This document shows positions 9,057 to 63,840 of a DNA stretch of 64,000 nt, one piece after another. Under the pieces are notes generated by a model that had not been told where the DNA came from, searched no databases, and was given only the letters and a program-made list of their open reading frames with translations. Every line of letters begins with the position of its first letter. The stretch's first letter is position 1. The stretch is from Geomonas silvestris (GTDB lineage: Bacteria; Desulfobacterota; Desulfuromonadia; Geobacterales; Geobacteraceae): the NCBI RefSeq assembly GCF_014193515.1, contig NZ_BLXX01000011.1:1-64000 (forward strand), written 5' to 3'. A program made the translations under genes and the position numbers.

Positions 9057-9080
9057 GTGACCTCGAGAACCTCAAAAAGG

Positions 9081-9306
9081 TTCTATGCTCTACGTTCTAT
9101 GTTGTACGTTCTATGTTGTACGTTCTATGTTGTACGTTCTATGTTGTACGTTCTATGTTCTACGTTAACGAATCTGGGTTTCGTTTCGTGAGGCAGCTCT
9201 TTGTTGGCCAGCAGGGTCACGGACCCTACCGTCACTCACCTTCCACCAACCAGCACCGTGGCAGGCTCGCCTTTCAACCGAGAACGTAGAACATAGAACA
9301 TAGAAA
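9081..9306. repeat. Word-repeat element, TTCTATG/TTCTACG heptad family
   Basis: The left arm (9081-9164) is exactly twelve 7-nt units alternating TTCTATG with TTGTACG or TTCTACG. After about 115 nt of unique sequence, 9280-9306 holds the reverse-complement words (AACGTAGAACATAGAA). The arms can pair into a long hairpin. It lies between the 3' end of the GH57 gene and the 5' end of the galT-like gene. The same family recurs at 41183-41354. Confidence 0.85.
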
Positions 9307-11578: not shown

Positions 11579-14089
11579 CTAGAGCGTCAGCTCCTTCTTC
11601 CACTTCTCCACTTTCTGCATGTACTCGTCCAGGAGCCGGTGCGCGGCCTTGGGGTCCTTCCCTTCGGCCACCACGTGCACCACCGGCTGGTACTGGTCGG
11701 GGAGCACCAGGACCCAGTCCTCGCCGAAACTCACCTTGATGCCGTCGATGAAGCTCGCCTCCTTGTCCAGGCTGTCCTCGCTCATCTTGCGCATGATCCC
11801 CCCCTTCTTCTCCCAGACACAGGGGACCTTCCCCTGCAAGAAGGTGCTGCGCCGCACCTCGCCTAAAACCTTGGAGAGCGGCAGCCGGGCGGCAGCCGAG
11901 AGCTCGATGGTCTTCGCGATGGTGAACATCCCGTCGAAGGCGGCCTGGAACTTCGGGAAGGCGAAGCGGCCGCTCATGGTGCCGGCCATGATCACCTCGG
12001 GGGAAATCGCGGTCTCGATCATGGAGCGCTCGGCGCTCTTGGTGCGCCGGACCGCGCAGCCGTTTTCCGCCGCTATCTGCTCGATCACCGAGGGGGCCGA
12101 CACCGGGACGGCGAAGGTACCGCGGGCCCCGCTTTTCAGCATGAGAGCGACCAGAAGCGGCAAAAGCTCCTCGGGGGGGTAGACCTTGCCGGTCTCGTCA
12201 ACGAGCGCCACCTCCTCGGCGGTCGGGTCGAGCCAGAATCCCGCCTGCGCCTCCAGCGTCACCACGATCTTGGAGAGCTGCTGCAGCGAGTGCGGCTTCT
12301 CGTCGGCGCTCTTCGAGCCGCGGCTTTCGTCCAGGTAGGTGTTGAGCCCGATCACCTCGACCCCCAGGTCGTTCAGGATCTGCGGGAGGATCTGGCCGGC
12401 CACCGAGTGGTTGAAGTCGATCACCACCTTGGACGCCGCGCCGCGGATCAGCTGCTGGTCGAGCCCCCTGAAGAACCCTTCGCGGTAGAAGTCGACCACC
12501 TGGGGGAGTTCGGTGATGCCGCCGGGCTCCTGGTAGTGGGCGCGCCTGAAGTTCTCCTTGTAGAAGATGCGCTCCACGTTTTTCCCCATGGAGCTCGAGA
12601 AGTCGAGGCCGTCGGCGTCGAGAAAGACGATCTCGGTGATGGCCGGGTCCTCCAGGCTCTGCCGGAAGTGCACCCCCCCCACCTCGCCGAAGGTGCGCAG
12701 CTTGTAGCGCAGGATGGGGAGCGAGATCATCCGGATGTCGCGCACGTTCACCCCCGCCGAGAGGATCCCCCCCAAAAAGGAGCGCTTCAGCATGCGCGAG
12801 GAGAGCGTCGAGTCGCGCCCCACCAGGACGTGGCTCCCTTTGGGGAGCGAGGTGCCGTAGGCGCACCCGAGCTTCGCCACGAACTCGGGGGTGAGTTCGA
12901 TGTTGGAGAGCCCCTTGATCATCTCACCCTCGAAGAGCGACTTCTTCCAGCGCTCGCCCCAGATCAGGTTGTCGGTCACTGTGGAGCCGGCTTCGATCAC
13001 CTTGCGCGGCCAGACCTTCACGTCGCGCTTTAAGTAGCTGTCCTCGCCGATCGAGGTGTCGTCGGCCACCACGACCCCTTCCTCCATCACGGTCGCCTGC
13101 CCCACGCTCACGTTGTTGCACAGGACGCAGTCGTTGATCTTCGCCCCCTTCTTGATGAAGACGTTGTCCCAGATCACGCAGCGGGTGAGCTTCACGCCGG
13201 GCTCGATGGTGCAGTTTCTGCCGATCACCGAGTCCTTGATCTGGGCCCCCGCCTTCACCTGGGAGTTGTCCCCCACCACCACGGTCCCCTCCATGAGGGT
13301 CCCCTCGCCGAGCCGCACGTCCGTGCCGATCCTCAGGTCCTTCCCCACCAGGTCCTTCTTGGGCTCGTCGATCTTCACGTTGACCTTACCCTTCAGGATG
13401 TCGTGGTGCGCCTCGCGGTAGCTGTCGGTGTTGCCGATGTCGCGCCAGTACCCTTTCACCGGGTAGCCGAAGAGTGCCGCCTTCTTCTTCAACAAGAGCG
13501 GGAAGAGGTCCTGGGAGAAGTCGAAGTTCTCCCCCTCGGGGATCATCTTGAAGACCTCGGGCTCGAGGACGTAGATGCCGGTGTTGATGGTATCCGAGAT
13601 CACCTCGCCCCAGCCGGGCTTCTCGAGGAACTGGGTGATGCGCCGGTCCTTGTCGGTGATCACCACGCCGAACTGCAGGGGGTCCTTCACCGAGGTGAGG
13701 GTGATGGTGGCGAGCGCCTTGTTGTTCTCGTGGAAGTCGATCACCTTCTGGATGTTGAAGTCGGTCAGAAGGTCGCCCGAGATGATCAGGAAGCGCTCGT
13801 CCAGGTACTTCTCGGCGTACTTCACCGCGCCCGCGGTCCCCATGTCCTCGAGCGGCGTCACGTAGGTGATGCGCACGCCGAAGTCGGCGCCGTCCCTAAA
13901 GAAGTTCTTGATGACGCTCGGCTGGTGGTAGAGCAGCATCACCAGGTCGGTGATACCGTGTTTTTTCAGGAGTTCCACGATGTGCAGCATGATGGGACGG
14001 TTCATGAGCGGAACCATCGGTTTGGGGATGTTGCAGGTAAGCGGTTGCATGCGGGTACCAAAGCCCCCCGCCATGATGACAGCCTTCAT
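11579..14089 (-). CDS. Sugar-1-phosphate nucleotidyltransferase fused to a degenerate phosphomannomutase-like domain
   Basis: 836 residues. The N-terminal ~235 residues are a nucleotidyltransferase with GGFGTRM and PKPMVP, which activates a sugar-1-phosphate with an NTP (mannose-1-phosphate guanylyltransferase type). A left-handed beta-helix with hexapeptide repeats covers about 255-380. From ~395 the sequence follows the phosphoglucomutase/phosphomannomutase family, but the phosphoserine loop, the DGDGDR metal loop (region ~617-624 reads WLDPTAEE) and the sugar-binding loop (~700-710 reads AGTMSGR) are not conserved. The second half may therefore be structural or regulatory. It is 47 bp upstream of the GH57 gene on the same strand. 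Confidence 0.85.
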   Translation of the reverse strand: MKAVIMAGGFGTRMQPLTCNIPKPMVPLMNRPIMLHIVELLKKHGITDLVMLLYHQPSVIKNFFRDGADFGVRITYVTPLEDMGTAGAVKYAEKYLDERFLIISGDLLTDFNIQKVIDFHENNKALATITLTSVKDPLQFGVVITDKDRRITQFLEKPGWGEVISDTINTGIYVLEPEVFKMIPEGENFDFSQDLFPLLLKKKAALFGYPVKGYWRDIGNTDSYREAHHDILKGKVNVKIDEPKKDLVGKDLRIGTDVRLGEGTLMEGTVVVGDNSQVKAGAQIKDSVIGRNCTIEPGVKLTRCVIWDNVFIKKGAKINDCVLCNNVSVGQATVMEEGVVVADDTSIGEDSYLKRDVKVWPRKVIEAGSTVTDNLIWGERWKKSLFEGEMIKGLSNIELTPEFVAKLGCAYGTSLPKGSHVLVGRDSTLSSRMLKRSFLGGILSAGVNVRDIRMISLPILRYKLRTFGEVGGVHFRQSLEDPAITEIVFLDADGLDFSSSMGKNVERIFYKENFRRAHYQEPGGITELPQVVDFYREGFFRGLDQQLIRGAASKVVIDFNHSVAGQILPQILNDLGVEVIGLNTYLDESRGSKSADEKPHSLQQLSKIVVTLEAQAGFWLDPTAEEVALVDETGKVYPPEELLPLLVALMLKSGARGTFAVPVSAPSVIEQIAAENGCAVRRTKSAERSMIETAISPEVIMAGTMSGRFAFPKFQAAFDGMFTIAKTIELSAAARLPLSKVLGEVRRSTFLQGKVPCVWEKKGGIMRKMSEDSLDKEASFIDGIKVSFGEDWVLVLPDQYQPVVHVVAEGKDPKAAHRLLDEYMQKVEKWKKELTL

Positions 14090-14130
14090 AGGTCAATCCT
14101 CCTTGGGAAAAATAACATCAGGAAATATCA

Positions 14131-14256
14131 AGTTGAGGTTGAGGTTGAGGAGAAGCCTTGACAGCCCGACCGGTACAGGATCTCTGCATATTTGCTGTTG
14201 ATCGGTTCAGGCTGCGTAGAAGCCTTCTTCTCAACCTTAACCTCAACCTAACCTGC
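14131..14256. repeat. Word-repeat element, GTTGAG hexad family
   Basis: The left arm (14131-14155) is AGTTGAGGTTGAGGTTGAGG plus AGAAG. The right arm (14224-14256) carries the complement (CTTCTTCTCAACC, CCTCAACC). The right arm contains the stop codon of the response regulator: minus strand reads GGCAGG, then TTAGGTTGAGG. The same family recurs at 23047, 26426 and 35848. Confidence 0.8.
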
Positions 14257-14625
14257 CGTTTGCGCCTTCTGCCTCTTGGCGAGTACCCGCTTGATCTCGT
14301 CTTTTAACTCCTGCATGTCGCTCGATTTCACCACGTAGCCGTCGGCGAGCCAGGCCGAGAAGTCGTCCTTGTAGCAGGAAAAAGCGGTGCACAGGATGAC
14401 CGGCAGGTTGTGGCGCTCCTTGACGATACGCTGCAACAGCTCGATGCCGCTTTCGTTTTTCAGCTTGATGTCTAGTACCACCAGGTCGAAGGCGTTACTT
14501 TGCAGTTTCTCGACCGCCTCCAGGGCAGAGCCCGCCGTCACCACCTGGTACCCCTCGTCGCTCAGTTCCTGCGCGTACAAAAGCCGGATATTCGCCTCGT
14601 CGTCCACCACCAGTAGTTGTGTCAT
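14248..14625 (-). CDS. Single-domain response regulator
   Basis: 125 residues forming one receiver domain with no output domain. The acidic pocket is DDE near residue 8, the phosphoacceptor is D52 (VVLDIKL), and T in ILCTAF and K in VVKSSD complete the switch. Its ATG is 2 bp after the stop of the upstream histidine kinase, so the two form a two-component pair. A longer open frame upstream is antisense noise. It ends inside a word-repeat arm that supplies the TAG stop. Confidence 0.9.
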   Translation of the reverse strand: MTQLLVVDDEANIRLLYAQELSDEGYQVVTAGSALEAVEKLQSNAFDLVVLDIKLKNESGIELLQRIVKERHNLPVILCTAFSCYKDDFSAWLADGYVVKSSDMQELKDEIKRVLAKRQKAQTAG

Positions 14626-23615: not shown

Positions 23616-23933
23616 AGGCAGGGATTAAAGGCAGGGACTAGGGACTGGGGACTAGGGAGGGCGAAAACCTTACTTCCCAGTTCCCTGTCCCCAGTTCCGC
23701 TTGTTCTCCGTTTCCTGTTTTCCAGCTGTTTTCCAGCTCTGGCCCCATCCCGTCTTCGGTTCTCTCCCGTTCTCCGACCCACTCGCTCTCCCCGTTTCGC
23801 TTCCAGCAGCCATTCCAATCCCAGCCGCAGCTTCAGCCCGACTCGAAGATCTCCAGTCCTCCGTCCTCCGTCCCCAGTCCCCAGTCCCTGCCTCTAGCCT
23901 CTAGCCTCTAGCCTCTAGCCTCTAGTCACTCGC
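23616..23933. repeat. Word-repeat element, GGGACTA heptad family
   Basis: Begins AGGCAGGG at 23616, 3 nt after the cheW stop, with a second AGGCAGGG at 23629 followed by GGGACTAGGGACTGGGGACTA. The right arm (about 23851-23933) carries CCCCAGTCCCCAGTCCCTGCCT (split here: CCCCAGT twice, then CCCTGCCT at 23886-23893) and then about five CTAGCCT heptads. The ~190 nt between are pyrimidine-rich with TTTTCCAGCTG repeats and no gene. Confidence 0.85.
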
Positions 23934-26997: not shown

Positions 26998-27124
26998 AGG
27001 CAGGGACGAGGGACTGGGGACGAGGGGAAAACCTCTTGTCTCCAGTCTCCTTTCCACCCTATGAGCCTCAAACCGTCCGCTCGGTATCCAGCTCCCAGCT
27101 CCCAGCCCCTAGCCCCTGCCTCTC
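26998..27124. repeat. Word-repeat element, GGGACGA/GGGGCTA heptad family
   Basis: AGGCAGGG (26998-27005) follows the cheW TAA by 1 nt and continues with GAGGGACTGGGGACGAGGGG. The right arm (27088-27124) has CCAGCTCCCAGCTCCCAGC, CCCTAGC and ends CCCTGCCT (27114-27121). Some 60 nt of unrelated sequence lie between. The lptF start is 45 bp beyond. Confidence 0.8.
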
Positions 27125-35655: not shown

Positions 35656-35847
35656 GGCATTTCGACAAGGTAGAGGCTGTCGGACCCGCAGCTGGCGCCC
35701 CTTCGGGGCTGTGGGAAAGGAGGGTGCAATTGCGGCAGGTGTCGCGCCGAACTTTTTGCGCAGATCGTTTAACTGGACCAGGAGGAGTGCGGAGGGGACG
35801 CGAAGGAAGCGGCGACTGCGGGGAATGCGGAAAACGGGTTGCGGCCA

Positions 35848-35941
35848 AGGTTAAGGTTGAGGAGACCGGAGCTGCCACCTGGACCCGACAGGAGATCCAC
35901 CGTGTCTCGACCTCAACCTTAACCTTAGCCGTAACCTGCCT
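35848..35941. repeat. Word-repeat element, GGTTAAGGTTGAGG family
   Basis: The left arm AGGTTAAGGTTGAGGAGAC (35848-35866) faces GTCTCGACCTCAACCTTAACC (about 35904-35925, plus further words). On the minus strand the right arm begins AGGCAGG at 35941, directly after the TAG stop of the neighbouring gene, and continues TTACGGCTAAGGTTAAGG. Confidence 0.8.
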
Positions 35942-36415
35942 CTACGCCGCCTTCTGCTCCTGCTGCAGCAGCCCGCAGCGCTTGAGTTCTTTTTCCAGCT
36001 TCACCCTGGTGATTCCCAGCGCGCGGCAGATGCTCTCGCTGTCGCAGCTGTAGCGATCCATCGCCATCAAGAGCAGCGCCTTTCTCAGGGAAACGGAAAG
36101 CTTGTCCATGACATGCTCCGTCGCGGTGGCGCTGATCAGGGTAAAAAGAGGTTGCAGATTGTTCTCGAAGAGCTTGGCGCTCTCCTCCACGTGCGGATTG
36201 CTTTCCACTTTCATAGCGTTCACCCTCACCATATTCGCGGCAATATCAGCCATATTCTCCTTGACGAAGCTCAAGGTGTCCCAATCGTTTTCCACGGTCA
36301 GCACGGCGCTAGCACCGCAATCGGCAGGGAGGCTTTTCTTGGTCAGCACCACCTCGAGCGCCCGAAACTCGTAGGCACCAGCCCGGTGAATCGTCTCTTT
36401 GCATCTGTGTCCCAT
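35942..36415 (-). CDS. Uncharacterised protein with C-terminal helix-turn-helix
   Basis: 157 residues. The last ~35 residues (SESICRALGITRVKLEKELK) look like a Fis-type helix-turn-helix. The preceding ~120 residues are mostly helical and not recognised. The N-terminus has HRCKETIHRAGAYEFRALEV. AGGAGG lies ahead of the ATG at 36415; the frame is open to 36517 without support. It could be a small regulator. Its stop codon touches a word-repeat arm. Confidence 0.65.
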   Translation of the reverse strand: MGHRCKETIHRAGAYEFRALEVVLTKKSLPADCGASAVLTVENDWDTLSFVKENMADIAANMVRVNAMKVESNPHVEESAKLFENNLQPLFTLISATATEHVMDKLSVSLRKALLLMAMDRYSCDSESICRALGITRVKLEKELKRCGLLQQEQKAA

Positions 36416-39886: not shown

Positions 39887-40222
39887 ATGGCAGAAATAAC
39901 CTGGGATGATTTTGAACGGGTGGAGCTTCGGGTGGGGACGATTCTGGAGGTGGAGGAGTTTCCGGAGGCGCGCAACCCGGCGTACAAACTGCGGGTAGAT
40001 TTTGGCGAGGCAGGTATCAGAAAATCGAGCGCCCAGATCACCAAGCTGTACACCCGCGAGGAGTTGGTCGGCAAGCAGGTGATCGGCGTCGTCAACTTCC
40101 CGCGCAAGCAGATCGGCCGTTTCTTCTCCGAAGTGCTCATCACCGGTTTCCCCGACGAAAACGGTGCCATCGTCCTTGCCGTCCCGGAGCGTGAGGTCCC
40201 AAACGGCGCCCGATTAGCGTAA
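39887..40222 (+). CDS. csaA: CsaA-type tRNA-binding-domain protein
   Basis: 111 residues making up a single OB-fold tRNA-binding domain like the C-terminus of bacterial MetRS. CsaA proteins form dimers and have chaperone-like and tRNA-binding activity linked to protein export. [22 protein letters not shown] and the late [15 protein letters not shown] are typical. AAAGGAGG precedes the ATG. The TAA stop is immediately followed by an AGGCAG word-repeat arm. Confidence 0.9.
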
Positions 40223-40348
40223 AGGCAGCGGCTAGGGGCTTCCACCTCTCCGTTGAATCAACAGAAAAGGGCAGGCGCCATACTCGGCGACCTGCCCTTT
40301 TTCATTTTCTCTTGCTGTTTCCCTAGTGCCTGGTCCCTAGTCCCCGCT
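40223..40348. repeat. Word-repeat element between convergent csaA and rsmI
   Basis: AGGCAGCGGCTAGGGGCT starts at 40223, directly after the csaA stop. The right arm (40319-40348) has CCCTAGTGCCTGG and TCCCTAGTCCCC. On the minus strand that arm contains the rsmI stop codon (GGGGACTAGGGAC). The element encloses the bidirectional terminator. Confidence 0.75.
40265..40303. terminator. Bidirectional terminator for csaA and rsmI
   Basis: AAAAGGGCAGG (40265-40275) pairs with CCTGCCCTTTT (40291-40301), with an inner CGCC/GGCG stem and A- and T-runs on both sides. Confidence 0.85.
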
Positions 40349-41176
40349 TTTCATCTTAAGCGCTTCCGCATACACCGTGCTCTTCGGCAGCCCCGTTTCC
40401 TGGGTCACCTTCTTAACCGCATCCTTCAGGGAGTACTCGCCCGACGCCAGATACTTGGCCAGCAGCTCTTCCATCCGCGGCGTGTCCGGCAGGGCCTCCT
40501 CGGTGCTCGGCGCGACCAGGATAGCTACCTCCCCTTTCAGCTCCCTCCGCTCGGCCTCAGCAATGACTTCGGAGATCGTCCCGCGCAGGAACTCCTCGAA
40601 GAGCTTGGTGAGCTCGCGCGCGAGGACGATCTCGCGGTCACCCAAGACCTCCAGCATGTCCTTAAGCGTAGTGAGCAGCCGCTTGGGCGCCTCGTAGAAG
40701 ATGATGAGTCCCGGCAGGTTGACCAGCGACTCCAGCTTCTCGCGCCGCCGTCCCGCACGGTTGGAAAGGAACCCGGCAAAGGTGAAGAGATCCGACGGCA
40801 ACCCGGAAGCCGAGAGCGCGGTGATGGCCGCGCAGGCGCCGGGTATCGGCACCACGGTGACCCCGGCAGCTGCGGCGTCGCGGATCAGCTGGTATCCCGG
40901 ATCCGAAACGCAGGGAGTCCCGGCGTCGGTGACCAGAGCCACGTTCAGACCGTTCAGGAGCCTATCCAGCACGTAACTCCCCTTCACTTCCTTGTTGTGA
41001 TCGAAGTACGAGGTGAGCGGCCGGGAGATGCCGAAGTGGGTCAAAAGCTTGCGCGTGTGGCGGGTATCCTCCGCGGCGATCAGGTCCGCCTCTTTGAGGA
41101 TGCGCAGCGCGCGCAGCGTGATGTCTTCTAGATTGCCGATCGGTGTGGCTACGATGTAAAGAGTGCCTGAAGGCAT
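40337..41176 (-). CDS. rsmI: 16S rRNA (cytidine-1402-2'-O)-methyltransferase
   Basis: 279 residues, tetrapyrrole-methylase fold. It adds the 2'-O-methyl group to C1402 in the ribosomal decoding centre. LYIVATPIGNLEDIT at the N-terminus, AEDTRHTRKLL and TDAGTPCVSDPG are diagnostic. The C-terminal ~50 residues form the small helical domain. The last codon and stop lie inside a GGGACTA-type word-repeat arm. Confidence 0.95.
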   Translation of the reverse strand: MPSGTLYIVATPIGNLEDITLRALRILKEADLIAAEDTRHTRKLLTHFGISRPLTSYFDHNKEVKGSYVLDRLLNGLNVALVTDAGTPCVSDPGYQLIRDAAAAGVTVVPIPGACAAITALSASGLPSDLFTFAGFLSNRAGRRREKLESLVNLPGLIIFYEAPKRLLTTLKDMLEVLGDREIVLARELTKLFEEFLRGTISEVIAEAERRELKGEVAILVAPSTEEALPDTPRMEELLAKYLASGEYSLKDAVKKVTQETGLPKSTVYAEALKMKSGD

Positions 41177-41182
41177 AGAACC

Positions 41183-41354
41183 CGTTCTACGTTCTATGTT
41201 CTAGGTTCTATGTTCACAAACCAAAAACCTGGTGCAGGCAAGGTAGAGCACGGAACGCTGGAACATGACCGGATGTTTTTGATTTTCCCCCTACGCTCAA
41301 CCACTGCCCACGCCTGCAAACTAACGTAGAACCTAGAACGTAGAACTTAGAACC
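41183..41354. repeat. Word-repeat element, TTCTACG/TTCTATG heptad family
   Basis: The left arm (41183-41215) is CGTTCTACGTTCTATGTTC plus TAGGTTCTATGTTC. The right arm (41323-41354) carries the complement (AACGTAGAACCTAGAACG and so on). It lies between the nadE 3' end and the rsmI 5' end. It is the second copy of the family at 9081. About 107 nt of non-coding sequence separate the arms. Confidence 0.85.
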
Positions 41355-41365
41355 TGTTTCTGGGG

Positions 41366-42187
41366 TTACTTTCCCCAATCCCGCGCGTAGCGGAAATCGC
41401 GGTCGATGGTGCGGTTGGAAACCTTGGCGATCACCGGCAGGCGGCGCTTGAAGTGCGAACCCTGGACCTTGCGCTGCACGTTATCGATGAAGTCGGCGGC
41501 AAAGCCCGCATCGATCAGCTCCTCGCGATTCATGCGCTGGTCCACCATGCGGTAGAGGAGCTCATCGGCGTCGCGGTAGCTGAAGCCGAGTTCCTGCTCG
41601 TCGGTCTGCCCGGCCCACAGGTCGGCAGACGGCTTCTTCTCGATCACCTCGTGCGGCACCCCCATGGCTTCGGAGAGTGCCCACACCTGTGACTTGTAGA
41701 TGTCGCCGATCGGGTTCAAGGCGCTCGCCATGTCGCCGTGCAGCGTACCGTACCCCAGGAGGAGTTCGGTCTTGTTGCTGGTCCCCAGCACCAGGCCGCC
41801 CACCGCGGCAGAGTGATCGTACAGGATGGTCATGCGCTCGCGGGCCATCTTGTTGCCGCGCCGCATGTTGTCGGCATCCGGCACCAGCCCGAAGTAGGCG
41901 TCCACCATCGGGGTGATCTCGATCACCTTGTAGTTGATCCCCAGCGCGTCGGCCACCAGTTTCGCGTGCGCCTCGCTCTCCGGGTTACTGGTCTTGTAGG
42001 GCATCGTGTAGGCGTAGACGTTCTCCGGCCCGAGCGCCTCCGCGGCGATGAAGGCCACCAGCGCCGAATCGATCCCTCCGGAGAGCCCGAGCACCCCCTT
42101 TTTCACCCCAACCTTGTACACCTCGTCGCGCACGAAGCCGACCAGCATCTTGCGCAACAGCGTGGTATTAACCGATAACGCGCCCAT
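41366..42187 (-). CDS. nadE: NAD+ synthase, stand-alone synthetase domain
   Basis: 273 residues. It amidates deamido-NAD to NAD+ using ATP. The PP-loop SGGIDS (36-41) and the [12 protein letters not shown] motif are present. The glutaminase/nitrilase domain, fused in many bacterial glutamine-dependent enzymes, is missing here but is encoded by the gene immediately upstream with 2 bp between stop and start. The ATG at 42187 follows GAGGGGG. The longer frame to 42592 is a shadow. Confidence 0.92.
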
Positions 42188-43038: not shown

Positions 43039-43117
43039 GAGCGTCTCCGGGATTTTTTTCTAATAACTAGCATAGCCTATGAGCCCCGGGCAAACCTTTT
43101 CCTAAAAAAACCGGTTT

Positions 43118-43335
43118 TAGCCACGGAGCCACCAAGTGCACGGAGAAAAACCGGGCATGCGTACTTCGACATACTGCTCTGCGGCTACTGCTGGTAAACC
43201 CTCTCAAACTGTTCGCCCCTTCCCGTTGACGTGAGAGGCCGGACAAGAAGAATGGAGCCGTATCTCTTCAGACAGATCGACTGGTCGCGCGCACCAGGCA
43301 AGCGCCTTTTTCCGTGTCCTTGGTGGCTCCGTGGC
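43118..43335. repeat. Word-repeat element, CCACGGAG family
   Basis: AGCCACGGAGCCACCAAG near 43119 pairs over 18 bp with CTTGGTGGCTCCGTGGCT near 43318. Both arms continue with CACGGAGAAAAA-like sequence. The ~160 nt between hold no supported gene. It lies between the nitrilase 5' end and the DUF4149 gene 3' end. Confidence 0.8.
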
Positions 43336-43347
43336 TATCTTCAGCTT

Positions 43348-43788
43348 TTAGAAAAGCACCACCAGGACGACGCCGCCTGCGATAACCACCAGGTTGCAGA
43401 CCGCCGATACCCCGTGCAGCTTCGCGAATTCCCGGCGCAGCGGGTGATCTTTCGGCGTCGTTTCGAAGGAGACGATCTCCTTCTTGAGAGCGGCCGCCTT
43501 CGGCTCGATGTAGAAGGACTGGAACGAGCAAAGAGCCAGCATGACTGCGAGGATGATCCCCGCGACAAGGGTTCCCTTGCCCGAGAGGATCACGCGGCAG
43601 ATAAGCGCGACGACGCCGCAGGCGAGGCCCCAGCGGAAGTAGCCGGGGAAGAGCAGCCCCACGATGCGTCCCGCGCTGTCGCGGCTTTCCGACCGGAACA
43701 GGATCGGGGTCAGCATAAAGGTAAAGAGCGCAGCACCGCCCAGCCAGAGCGATACCGCCAGACGGTAAATGATGGTTACAACCTGCAT
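43348..43788 (-). CDS. DUF4149-type small membrane protein
   Basis: 146 residues with about four membrane helices (start YRLAVSLWLGGAALFTFML; last helix VVIAGGVVLVVLF). The SLWLGG...FTF...P signature and size fit DUF4149 proteins of unknown function. Word-repeat elements of one family lie on both sides. No operon partner is obvious; the next genes on the strand are yraN upstream and the nitrilase downstream. Confidence 0.78.
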   Translation of the reverse strand: MQVVTIIYRLAVSLWLGGAALFTFMLTPILFRSESRDSAGRIVGLLFPGYFRWGLACGVVALICRVILSGKGTLVAGIILAVMLALCSFQSFYIEPKAAALKKEIVSFETTPKDHPLRREFAKLHGVSAVCNLVVIAGGVVLVVLF

Positions 43789-43838
43789 GAAAGAACCTCC
43801 TTAGAAAAGAGTAGTCAGGGACTGCAACATGATAGATC

Positions 43839-44005
43839 AGCCGCGGAGGCACGGAGCGCACCGAGAAAAATCTCTACGGCTAAAGCTTCTAGGTATAACC
43901 CTCAAGCTTTTGCCTTTCTCCGGTTTTCCTCCGGCATTCTCCGTGACTACAAGATGTGAGGCCCGGCCGTTCAGCCTTTCTCCGTGCCCTCCGTGGCTCC
44001 GTGGC
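43839..44005. repeat. Word-repeat element, GCGGAGGCACGGAG family
   Basis: AGCCGCGGAGGCACGGAGCG (about 43839) with a CACCGAGAAAAA tail faces CTTTCTCCGTGCCCTCC and GTGGCTCCGTGGC (43976-44005). It is the second copy of the family at 43118 and lies between the yraN 3' end and the DUF4149 gene 5' end. Confidence 0.8.
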
Positions 44006-44015
44006 AAAACCGGTG

Positions 44016-44393
44016 TTAATAGGCCAATTCGAAGGCATCACGGATATGCTCGATCACCGGCACCTCCCCTTTGCGCGCCACGATCGCCACCACATCGAAC
44101 CTGGCCTCGGCATCGTAGAGTTTCTTCTTCGAAAGCCACACCAAGGCCGCCTTGGAAATCTGGCGCTGCTTGAACGGAGTCACTGCAAGCTGAGGCGGCC
44201 CATAGTTCACATTGTTGCGGCACTTCACCTCGACAAAGACAATGGTTCTACCTTCACGCGCGATGATATCCAGTTCGCCGCAGACACAGCGAAAGTTCCG
44301 CTCGACAATGGTGAAGCCTTGCCCTTGGAGATAGGTGGCGGCCATAGACTCACCTCGCTCTCCGAAAGAGCTGTTGCCGCGCTTTTCTTGCAT
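44016..44393 (-). CDS. yraN: YraN family protein (UPF0102, nuclease-like)
   Basis: 125 residues. The fold is of the Holliday-junction-resolvase/restriction-endonuclease type; ERNFRCVCGELDIIARE and FVEVKCRN hold the expected acidic and Lys metal-site residues. The biological role is not settled. The ATG at 44393 follows GGGGTGCT; an open frame to 44447 lacks support. It follows rnhB in the usual rplS-rnhB-yraN order. Confidence 0.9.
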   Translation of the reverse strand: MQEKRGNSSFGERGESMAATYLQGQGFTIVERNFRCVCGELDIIAREGRTIVFVEVKCRNNVNYGPPQLAVTPFKQRQISKAALVWLSKKKLYDAEARFDVVAIVARKGEVPVIEHIRDAFELAY

Positions 44394-49718: not shown

Positions 49719-49748
49719 AATCTAGTAGATAAACCCATCTATTGTCAA
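49719..49748 (-). promoter_or_regulatory. Promoter of the ffh operon
   Basis: Minus strand: TTGACA (49748-49743), 18-nt spacer, TAGATT (49724-49719). A perfect -35 lies only 11 bp from the end of the neighbouring S23-bearing repeat element. Confidence 0.65.
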
Positions 49749-49758
49749 GGAAAAAGAG

Positions 49759-50294
49759 AGGCAGGGGAAAGGCAGGGGCTAGGGACTAGGGACTAGGGAA
49801 ACGGCAAAATCTTAACCACTTCCCAGGCGCTTTTCATGCCACAGCCATCCTCTTTATCCCTACCCTCTGCCCCTTCATCCCAACTTTACCCTGAGCGTCT
49901 TTTGCAGAGAACGCAGCATCCGACCGACTTCGTCACATTTGCCGAGAGTCGCCTTGAGTGCTGTACTATCAAGGTACTGGAGGCGCTCTGCTATGAAAAG
50001 CTGTGTTTCCAGTTCTGCAAGAGATCCGGAGCAGATGGCAAGGAAATGCAAAAATTCTCGCGTAGACTCACGAGCATGACCTTCCGCTATATTGGAAGGT
50101 ACTGACACCGCAGCCCGGCGTACCTGGCTTGTCAGTGCATAAAGTTCAGATTGGGGAAAGTGTTTGGTATGTTCGTACACAGCATGGACCAGGTCCATTC
50201 CCAGCTGCCAAACTTTGAGATCACGATAGCTCTTAACCTCAAGCATCTCCCCCCCAGTTGCGCCGCCCTAGTCCCTAGCCCCTAGCCCCTGCCT
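49759..50294. repeat. Word-repeat element carrying an S23-family gene
   Basis: The left end has AGGCAGGGG (49759-49767), then AGGCAGGGGCTAGGGACTAG and more units to 49798. The right end (50267-50294) reads CCCTAGTCCCTAGCCC then TAGCCCCTGCCT, so the ends are inverted repeats of ~28 bp. The right end abuts the yedF stop codon exactly. Inside is a single gene, the S23-family protein, which nearly fills the space. This is the only element in the window with a gene as cargo. Confidence 0.8.
49875..50246 (-). CDS. Four-helix-bundle protein, S23/23S-rRNA-intervening-sequence family
   Basis: 123 residues, all-helical. KVWQLGMDLVHAVYEHTKHFP, VRRAAVSVPSNIAEGHARES and SLAELETQLFIAERL are the family signature. 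These proteins are known from intervening sequences in 23S rRNA genes, as free-standing genes and as Avd, the accessory protein of diversity-generating retroelements. No reverse transcriptase or variable repeat is nearby. The ATG at 50246 has GGGGGGAG very close. The ends of the surrounding repeat element suggest it travels with it. Confidence 0.85.
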   Translation of the reverse strand: MLEVKSYRDLKVWQLGMDLVHAVYEHTKHFPQSELYALTSQVRRAAVSVPSNIAEGHARESTREFLHFLAICSGSLAELETQLFIAERLQYLDSTALKATLGKCDEVGRMLRSLQKTLRVKLG

Positions 50295-50885
50295 TTACAA
50301 CCGCACTACTGTGCGTGCCGTCGTGAGGCTCTCGGCGATGGTGAACATGTTGGTTACCGCACCGGCCTTCAGAAGTTCCTTCTTGTGGAAGTAGTCGAGA
50401 CAGACGCCACAGGAGAGCACCTCCACCCCGCGGTTCCCGAGCTTCTCCAGCGCCTCGAGCACCTCGGACCCCTCGGCTGTGAGCAGCACGCCGGTGTTGA
50501 TGAAGAGCATCCGGTCCGGCACCTCGGCCACGTCCAAAAGGGTGATGATGAAGTTGCGCATCAAAAGACGCCCAAGCTCTTCGGGGCCGTCGCCCAGCCG
50601 GTCGGTGCCGATCAGCATCACCGCAGGTCCGGTCTTGGCGACCGCAGCCTGGGGAGCTGCGACTGCCGCAGCACCGGCGCCGGTGATGGTCAAGGCAAAA
50701 GCACCGTCCTGGACCTCTTCCTGCACCTGGTAGCCGCGACCTTCCGCGAAGCGCCGCACATTCTCCCTGGGCGCGCCGTCATCCAACAGCACCCGCAACG
50801 CTCCGTTCGCCGTTTCCAATGCCCGTTTCACCGATACCACCGGCGCCGGGCAGGCCATTCCCCTGCAATCGAGATCCATCGTCAT
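50295..50885 (-). CDS. yedF: YedF-like sulfurtransferase-type selenium metabolism protein
   Basis: 196 residues. The N-terminal TusA/SirA-like domain has the CPAP motif with C12 (MACPAPV) and the C-terminal domain is DsrE-like with VLSCGVCLDY. YedF proteins are linked to selenium or sulfur transfer. The ATG at 50885 overlaps the stop of the upstream DUF3343 gene by 4 bp; a second ATG at 50879 is a possible start. The TAA stop is directly followed by AGGCAGGGG of the repeat element. Confidence 0.88.
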   Translation of the reverse strand: MTMDLDCRGMACPAPVVSVKRALETANGALRVLLDDGAPRENVRRFAEGRGYQVQEEVQDGAFALTITGAGAAAVAAPQAAVAKTGPAVMLIGTDRLGDGPEELGRLLMRNFIITLLDVAEVPDRMLFINTGVLLTAEGSEVLEALEKLGNRGVEVLSCGVCLDYFHKKELLKAGAVTNMFTIAESLTTARTVVRL

Positions 50886-63239: not shown

Positions 63240-63840
63240 CGAACGCGCAGCCCTACTTCGGCGAGGGTGTCTTCATTATCGCAGCTGGCAATTGACAACA
63301 ACGCGAGAAAATTATCGTTATTTCCTCCGCGATGTCATACATCGGAGAGCACATCTTCGTTATCGTCGCCGCAATTAACAACTTCGAGAAAAAAATATCG
63401 ATATTTTTTTTGCGATAATGTTGTTCGGCAAGCGATTAACGATATTCCGGCGACGATGTTGTTAATCGCCGGCAAAATAACGATACTTTTTTTGCGATAA
63501 CATTATTTGTCGAGCGATTAACGATATTCCGGCGACGATGTTGTTAATCGCCGGCAAAATAACGATACTTTTTTTGCGATAATGTTGTTCGGCGAGCAAT
63601 TAACGATATTCCGGCGGCGATAACGTTAATCGCCCGACAAAATAACGATACTTTTTTTGCGATAACGTTATTTGTCGAGCGATTAACGATATTCCGGCGA
63701 CGATGTCATACATTGCCGAGCACATCTTAGTTATCGCGGCAGCAATTAACAACATTACGAAAAAAGTATCGTTATTCTCTGCGCGATGTCGTACATCGGC
63801 AGGACGATCACGTTAATGACGAGTTCAACTAATGAAATCA
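63240..63840. repeat. AT-rich array of ~82-bp dyad-rich tandem repeats
   Basis: About seven degenerate units. The best four share TTTTTTTGCGATAA with anchors (GCG) at 63412, 63494, 63576 and 63659, so periods are 82, 82 and 83. Each unit has two inverted repeats: GCGATTAAC...GTTAATCGC and, best in one unit, GACAAAATAACG...CGTTATTTGTC. Outer copies carry GATGTCATACAT in place of GATGTTGTTAAT. The period is not a multiple of three and frames are not maintained, so it does not code. GC content is far below the neighbours. Confidence 0.8.

Follow-up and report, generated by a model that had tools for sequence, protein, structure and literature searches.

An S23-family gene between inverted heptamer arrays in Geomonas silvestris: a possible self-spreading element of an unrecognised kind

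REPIN/RAYT systems combine dispersed extragenic inverted pairs with a low-copy Y1 transposase gene that is flanked by the same repeats, and their gene-less copies are the more numerous. S23 proteins are known from rRNA. According to the accessible part of one account, the 23S rRNA intervening sequence carries an S23 open reading frame within an insert excised by RNase III, tandem heptamers (GACAGAT) that vary between strains lie upstream of the S23 start in Coxiella, and a solved S23 relative is a homopentamer (PMC4990558). Unexplained heptamer repeats are reported in the accessible parts of two other papers: GGGAATC in Xanthomonas and Nostoc, intergenic and in convergent inverted pairs in Xanthomonas (PMC4692102), and TAACTGA in Beggiatoaceae (PMC4679880). 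The term S23 does not occur in the available text of either, and in the literature covered, mostly outside subscription papers, we found none joining free-standing S23 genes to heptamer arms. Here we analyse such an arrangement in a 64,000-nucleotide stretch of Geomonas silvestris DNA (the window), comparing the window genome (G000) with 18 sisters, 19 genomes in all.

Between yedF and ffh, which are both encoded on the minus strand, lies a minus-strand gene of 123 residues at 49,875–50,246. Its product matches the S23/23S_rRNA_IVP four-helix-bundle family above the curated cut-offs, scoring 133.2 bits against a cut-off of 33.8 for PF05635 (E 4.9e-39, over most of the protein) and 129.2 bits against 24 for TIGR02436; the closest solved structure is 2gsc (XCC0516; E 1.1e-24). 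This is the sole open reading frame between two inverted arms, as an earlier sequence-only reading had noted, though the arms are slightly longer than the 28 nt given there: each is 31 nt, the two are 97% complementary, and 467 nt separate them. Upstream of the S23 start, the arm reads AAAGGCAGGGGCTAGGGGCTAGGGACTAGGG on the coding strand; it lies at 50,266–50,296 (minus) and overlaps the yedF stop codon by two bases, bearing out the claim that this end abuts yedF. Its inverted copy downstream of the S23 stop, the partner in an RNA stem, lies at 49,768–49,798 (plus), with its outer end 10 bp from the TTGACA (49,743–49,748) of the ffh promoter, close to the -35 box as the same reading held. Each arm consists of a leader, AAAGGCAGGGG, followed by 7-bp words, CTAGGGR. 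On the ffh-promoter side, a partial outer copy of the leader (AGGCAGGGG) occupies 49,759–49,767 (plus), and a further sequence, GGGATGAAGGGGCAGAGGGTAGGGATAAA, overlaps the S23 stop at 49,853–49,881 (minus); it resembles the different words found in the same gap of the nearest sister, G009, to which we infer that it is related. The exact pattern CTAGGGRCTAGGG has 23 matches in the 5.1-Mb genome and its reversed control has none, which excludes a chance origin of the words; they recur at ten further genomic places, at some of these together with the leader. In a predicted RNA fold, the arms pair into a single long stem that closes around the gene (z -5.8; none of 100 shuffled sequences was equally stable).

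Like REPIN/RAYT systems, this arrangement has dispersed inverted extragenic pairs, a low-copy gene with the same flanking repeats and gene-less copies that outnumber the gene. Unlike them, the gene encodes a four-helix-bundle S23 protein rather than a Y1 transposase, and each end is made up of tandem copies of a 7-bp word that can change; between the arms, the list of open reading frames and a profile search gave S23 only and no transposase gene. With 23S intervening sequences, as far as the accessible account describes them, the locus shares the protein family and the heptamers before the S23 start, but it lies in a gap between protein genes and not inside a 23S rRNA helix, its word is shared by other arrays, and both arms are word arrays. 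Because of the Coxiella heptamers in that account, the rRNA elements may, by analogy, be the same thing in another place. The Avd proteins of diversity-generating retroelements are distant kin of the window protein (bAvd, E 6.7e-9; DivGenRetAVD, E 3.7e-7; both below cut-offs). Unlike Avd genes, however, the window gene has ffh and yedF as neighbours, and no reverse transcriptase, template or variable repeat beside it. Its arrays resemble the GGGAATC and TAACTGA repeats, in so far as the available texts describe these, in being intergenic and built of 7-bp words, and GGGAATC words themselves flank S23 genes at L315 and L320, with GGGAATA/G words at L318.

The reading that we favour, with confidence about evenly balanced, is that the window contains the gene-bearing copy of an element from a system that resembles REPIN/RAYT without being related to it, in which S23 acts in trans on word arrays. 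The element family would consist of two intergenic, inverted arrays of a 7-bp word, most copies enclosing a short unrelated stretch and a few per genome enclosing an S23 gene. The S23 protein would recognise its own word array, probably as the RNA stem of the two arms, and would then assist, in trans, in copying or rewriting the arrays that match it at other sites, with a polymerase presumably supplied by the cell. RAYT and its REPINs, or Avd and its template RNA, would follow the same logic; given the distant S23–Avd relation, it is attractive to think of S23 as an RNA-binding protein that borrows a reverse transcriptase.

The sequence-only reading had proposed a small mobile element, with the other word-repeat elements as its empty relatives, and this interpretation is partly supported. 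The yedF-ffh gap contains no S23 match in any of the 18 sister genomes, G009 (88.5% identity over the aligned part) included, so the gene is not conserved at this locus across the genus. By eye, the gap is short in ten sisters and occupied by other inverted or hairpin sequences in eight; in G009 it holds an inverted pair of CAGGGATGAA-like words. However, GGGRCTA pairs sit at three gaps common to G009, and that genome has 75 GGGRCTA matches, the highest count of the genomes, while a profile search found no S23 match anywhere in it. Both points disfavour a simple mobile S23 gene with its own ends. No transposition event or target-site duplication was identified; the sister gaps are too diverged for exact junctions to be placed. 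As for empty relatives, one case came to light, at another site and not of the window's own element: the DUF721/methyltransferase gap of G018, where G002, G011, G013 and G014 carry S23, retains both arms but just the beginning of an S23 gene between them. The G018 copy is a deletion-made, MITE-like empty derivative. Further inverted element families were seen by eye in sister yedF-ffh and DUF721/methyltransferase gaps (TCTGAGAAAATCTGAG, AACGCAAAGGCGC, CGCGGATGACGCGGAT and CTCTCCCGGAGGG). The idea that the window gene is the genus's site-a S23 gene moved by 2 kb was weakened, since the site-a genes form a group with L056 (labelled Myxococcota in the tree) that excludes L001 (96/91), in a tree with many open forks.

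Gene-less pairs of the same or degenerate words as the S23 element occur elsewhere in the window. Inverted GGGRCTA-like arrays lie at 23,626–23,896 (arms 23,626–23,661 and 23,861–23,896), degenerate GGGRCTA arrays at about 27,000–27,120, and GGGRCTA arrays around a hairpin that by eye resembles a terminator at about 40,221–40,350. Within the 144 kb compared there are five GGGRCTA pairs; those at 27.1, 40.3 and 80.9 kb occupy the same gaps in G009, and a fourth, at 23.6 kb, has a decayed trace there. Two more gene-less pairs carry other words: GTTCTAT/GTTGTAC at 9,080–9,305, which is not in G009, and GTTCTAN at 41,179–41,358, where the G009 gap holds a different inverted element. GTTCTAN is the word of the window genome's second S23 gene (L002). 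At 14,080–14,300, 41,120–41,400 and 43,090–44,020, G000 and G009 carry different inverted word elements or a single arm, and at 35,800–35,960 their words are similar. Word elements thus appear to turn over rapidly at fixed gaps between the two genomes. At 63,289–63,776, imperfect inverted repeats 26 to 58 nt long (GTTAATCGCC-like and TATTCCGGCG-like) are clustered; they look unrelated to the word arrays.

The pattern is wider than the single window element first noted. We scored local matches between the 200 bp upstream of each S23 gene and the reverse complement of the 200 bp downstream, taking a score of at least 14 as arms. The sample comprised genus loci (up to 30, plus L218–L220), the best 80 of 522 relatives in the genome_contigs set, and further copies and stretches, the copies coming from 19 of 20 genomes behind the genome_contigs loci, with the genome of L088 left out. 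It leans towards relatives of the window gene. From 169 loci, 161 had an S23 gene by our own profile, 140 of these were distinct and 136 had both flanks; the eight dropped loci matched weakly or in part, and some exceed the Pfam cut-off (L039 and L040 in the genus); further partial matches in the genus were left out. Matching inverted arms were present within 200 bp at 103 of the 136 genes, which come from many phyla, and 33 fell below threshold; at a score of at least 16 the count was 92. By set, arms were found at 54 of 75 genome_contigs genes, 25 of 34 other copies and 24 of 27 genus genes. S23 genes lacking such flanks, which had been named as grounds against the mobile-element idea, are thus confined in the genus to three below threshold. 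For 56 loci the gene's own downstream flank was the best of 136 possible partners, with a median rank of 1.

In an earlier set, only 6 of 300 control open reading frames reached a score of 14, against 72 of 99 S23 genes at the same loci; the two highest controls are apparently one region in two loci, and the one that was checked, which lies in L055, proved to be a PDDEXK_3 gene that has its own word ends. (L055, from G. propionica, has the same S23 gene and context as L029 of G014.) As a positive control, the same test found matching ends at 18 of 29 Y1/RAYT genes. In the Luteimonas family, 64 of 149 genomes have S23, with arms at 12 of the 29 loci analysed and 17 below threshold. S23 genes are repeatedly found in tight operon gaps with different words (L067, L071, L076, L087, L315, L318, L320 and L327), among them, with gene names assigned by eye, positions ahead of a GuaA-like start in several beta-proteobacteria; in the Luteimonas family the start that follows is AccC-like. 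Single genomes can hold many S23 matches, often with different words (18 in G037, 8 each in G030 and G031).

The arms follow a period of seven. Among the 92 best arms, the period was 7 in 80, 6 in seven, 8 in three, and 9 and 11 in one each. In an alignment-free lag test over 70 bp on each side, S23 flanks of the three main sets peaked at lags 7 and 14, with self-match 0.07 to 0.14 above composition; control open reading frames peaked at the coding lag of 3 or its multiples, and PIN-domain genes gave nothing clear. The peak in the Luteimonas family was clear upstream and weak downstream. The word itself varies by locus (GGGRCTA, GTTCTAC, GTTCAAC, TTAGTCG, GTAAAAA, GGTGTCA and more). Words such as GTTCAAC, CAATTGA and GATAAA contain no GGG, and a general G-quadruplex role of GGG words was rejected on this ground.

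Word and protein lineage go together. With locus pairs in homologous surroundings excluded, protein identity correlated with word similarity (Spearman 0.355 over 5043 pairs from 103 loci), a value reached in none of 300 permutations. Four main S23 types in the genus each have their own word family: type a GGGRCTA, type b GATAAA or GATTAAGA, type c GTTCAAC or GTTCTAS, and type d CAATTGA. G033, titled Deltaproteobacteria and labelled Myxococcota in the tree, repeats two Geomonas pairings at other sites, type a with GGGRCTA (L056) and type c with GTTCAAC (L200). L205 is an exception: its identity to type d is 70%, yet its word is a different one; L038 is 49% identical to type d and has another word, and L041 falls outside all types. 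The protein is under purifying selection, as dN (0.007–0.135) lies far below dS (0.04–2.1) in ten pairs; one more pair had saturated dS.

One word also tracks one S23 clade across the genus. Ten genomes that carry clade-c S23 have 12 to 100 matches to GTTCAACGTTCAACG (GTTCAAC arrays), and the other nine have 0 to 2. In G000 and G013, which show 0 and 1 matches, the clade-c genes are flanked by other words; these two genomes were set apart after the counts were known, and G015 was counted among the ten carriers although its S23 arms read GTTCTAC. By phylogenetic regression (PGLS) the association had t 10.2 and p 1.2e-8 with G000 and G013 set apart, and t 4.1 and p 0.0007 with both taken as carriers. 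Sister contrasts on a FastTree phylogeny of ffh and its downstream 1.5 kb agree (G014/G003; G018 against G011, G012 and G002; G013 against G004 and G005). The clade-c gene of G011 (G011:C1:3641465-3641772) is split over two frames, yet this genome has 93 GTTCAAC matches, and the clade-c genes of G002 and G007 cover the profile incompletely. The high GTTCTAS counts predicted for G000 and G015 were found (139 and 127 matches) but are unspecific, because these arrays are also common without clade-c S23 in G003 (105), G006 (89) and G017; G010 (147) and G012 (104) are high as well, and the regression of GTTCTAS on the first predictor gave p 0.08. For clade a and GGGRCTA the association is weak (PGLS p 0.06; p 0.03 with no tree weight; one-sided rank test p 0.014) and is contradicted by G009, with its 75 matches and no S23 match.

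These pairings bear on the strongest alternative, that S23 is a passenger: other machinery would make and spread the arrays, and S23, with an unrelated cellular role, would survive best inside them, in safe gaps and with arms insulating its transcript. The abundant arrays of G009 and the small number of S23 genes per genome speak for it, as do 40 gene-less array stretches that we examined (twenty in G003, sixteen in G002, four in G004), all with less room between the arms than an S23 gene requires. So do PDDEXK_3 genes (PF13366, GxxExxY), which across these 19 genomes likewise lie between inverted word arrays (L055:1705-2085 and L242–L271): among 30 of 43 such genes, 28 score at least 14 and 25 at least 16, and some have a complete inverted pair in each flank. 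However, the period is tied to the gene family. Where S23 has 7, the 25 best-scoring PDDEXK_3 genes have 9 in eleven, 8 in eight, 10 in five and 11 in one. Moreover, similar S23 proteins have similar words in different sites and genera, genomes lacking clade-c S23 have next to no GTTCAAC arrays in several sister contrasts, and PIN-domain genes of the same genus show no such placement (arms at none of 30, out of 42). We therefore regard the passenger explanation as possible but clearly less probable than an action of S23 on the arrays.

The gene-less stretches have a uniform layout. Typically a stop codon is followed by an arm, some 10 to 300 bp of unrelated sequence, the inverted arm and the next gene start; a few stretches are one-armed. 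Among the matches listed, all 32 close opposite pairs (17 in G003, 15 in G002) are convergent and none divergent. The arrays thus form dispersed inverted pairs of fixed polarity that share the flanking repeat of an S23 gene, as REPINs share that of RAYT. The convergent polarity, the position between stop and start, the folding of the arms into one stem and the many pairs that occupy the same gap in two species would also suit RNA-processing or termination devices selected at operon gaps, akin to the RNase III-cut 23S stems, with words arising by slippage and arm-to-arm correction and nothing moving. Against such devices, sister gaps hold different elements or none, and slippage by itself does not explain why a genome has the same word at tens of places while the next species has a different word at some of them. 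From 19 flank matches, ten were kept as orthologous gaps and nine that rested on the arrays themselves were dropped; bar a few single words, the ten differ in concert, with GTTCTAN in G003 and GTTCAAC in G002 or G004. They were chosen by word, so that the word difference is built in but the identity of the gap is not. Both arms are present in both species at nine of them, L380/L387 having one arm on the G003 side. At L374 and L393 the junctions are nearly identical on both sides, which favours rewriting in place. An account by static RNA devices consequently seems unlikely to us. It is very improbable that we are dealing with ordinary REPINs, mobilised by a RAYT transposase that the same genome encodes: the convergent inverted layout is the same and 18 of the 19 genomes have Y1 transposase matches, but the three Geomonas word arrays occur within 1.5 kb of none of 30 Y1 loci, whose ends differ, G006 has its GTTCTAS arrays with no Y1 match, and RAYT was rejected as their mover.

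Returning to S23 as a factor that acts on word arrays in trans, a bolder form, which we put forward as a doubtful speculation, makes it the guide-and-word subunit of a telomere-like writing system. RNA of its own element, with a reverse transcriptase of the cell, would rewrite the heptamer arrays of many gaps; one word would thereby become common to the whole genome, and it would change with the resident S23 element. Were this so, the rRNA intervening sequences and the long-known heptamer repeats would be outlying products of one system. More generally, the arrays and their S23 genes point to a type of self-spreading element that has gone unrecognised, and they link S23, a widespread family with no known role, to repeats of no known origin. 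If the favoured reading is right, it would account for S23 genes in rRNA and in operon gaps as well as for the heptamer repeats of several phyla, and the REPIN/RAYT way of life would have been invented twice, the second time by a non-homologous system.
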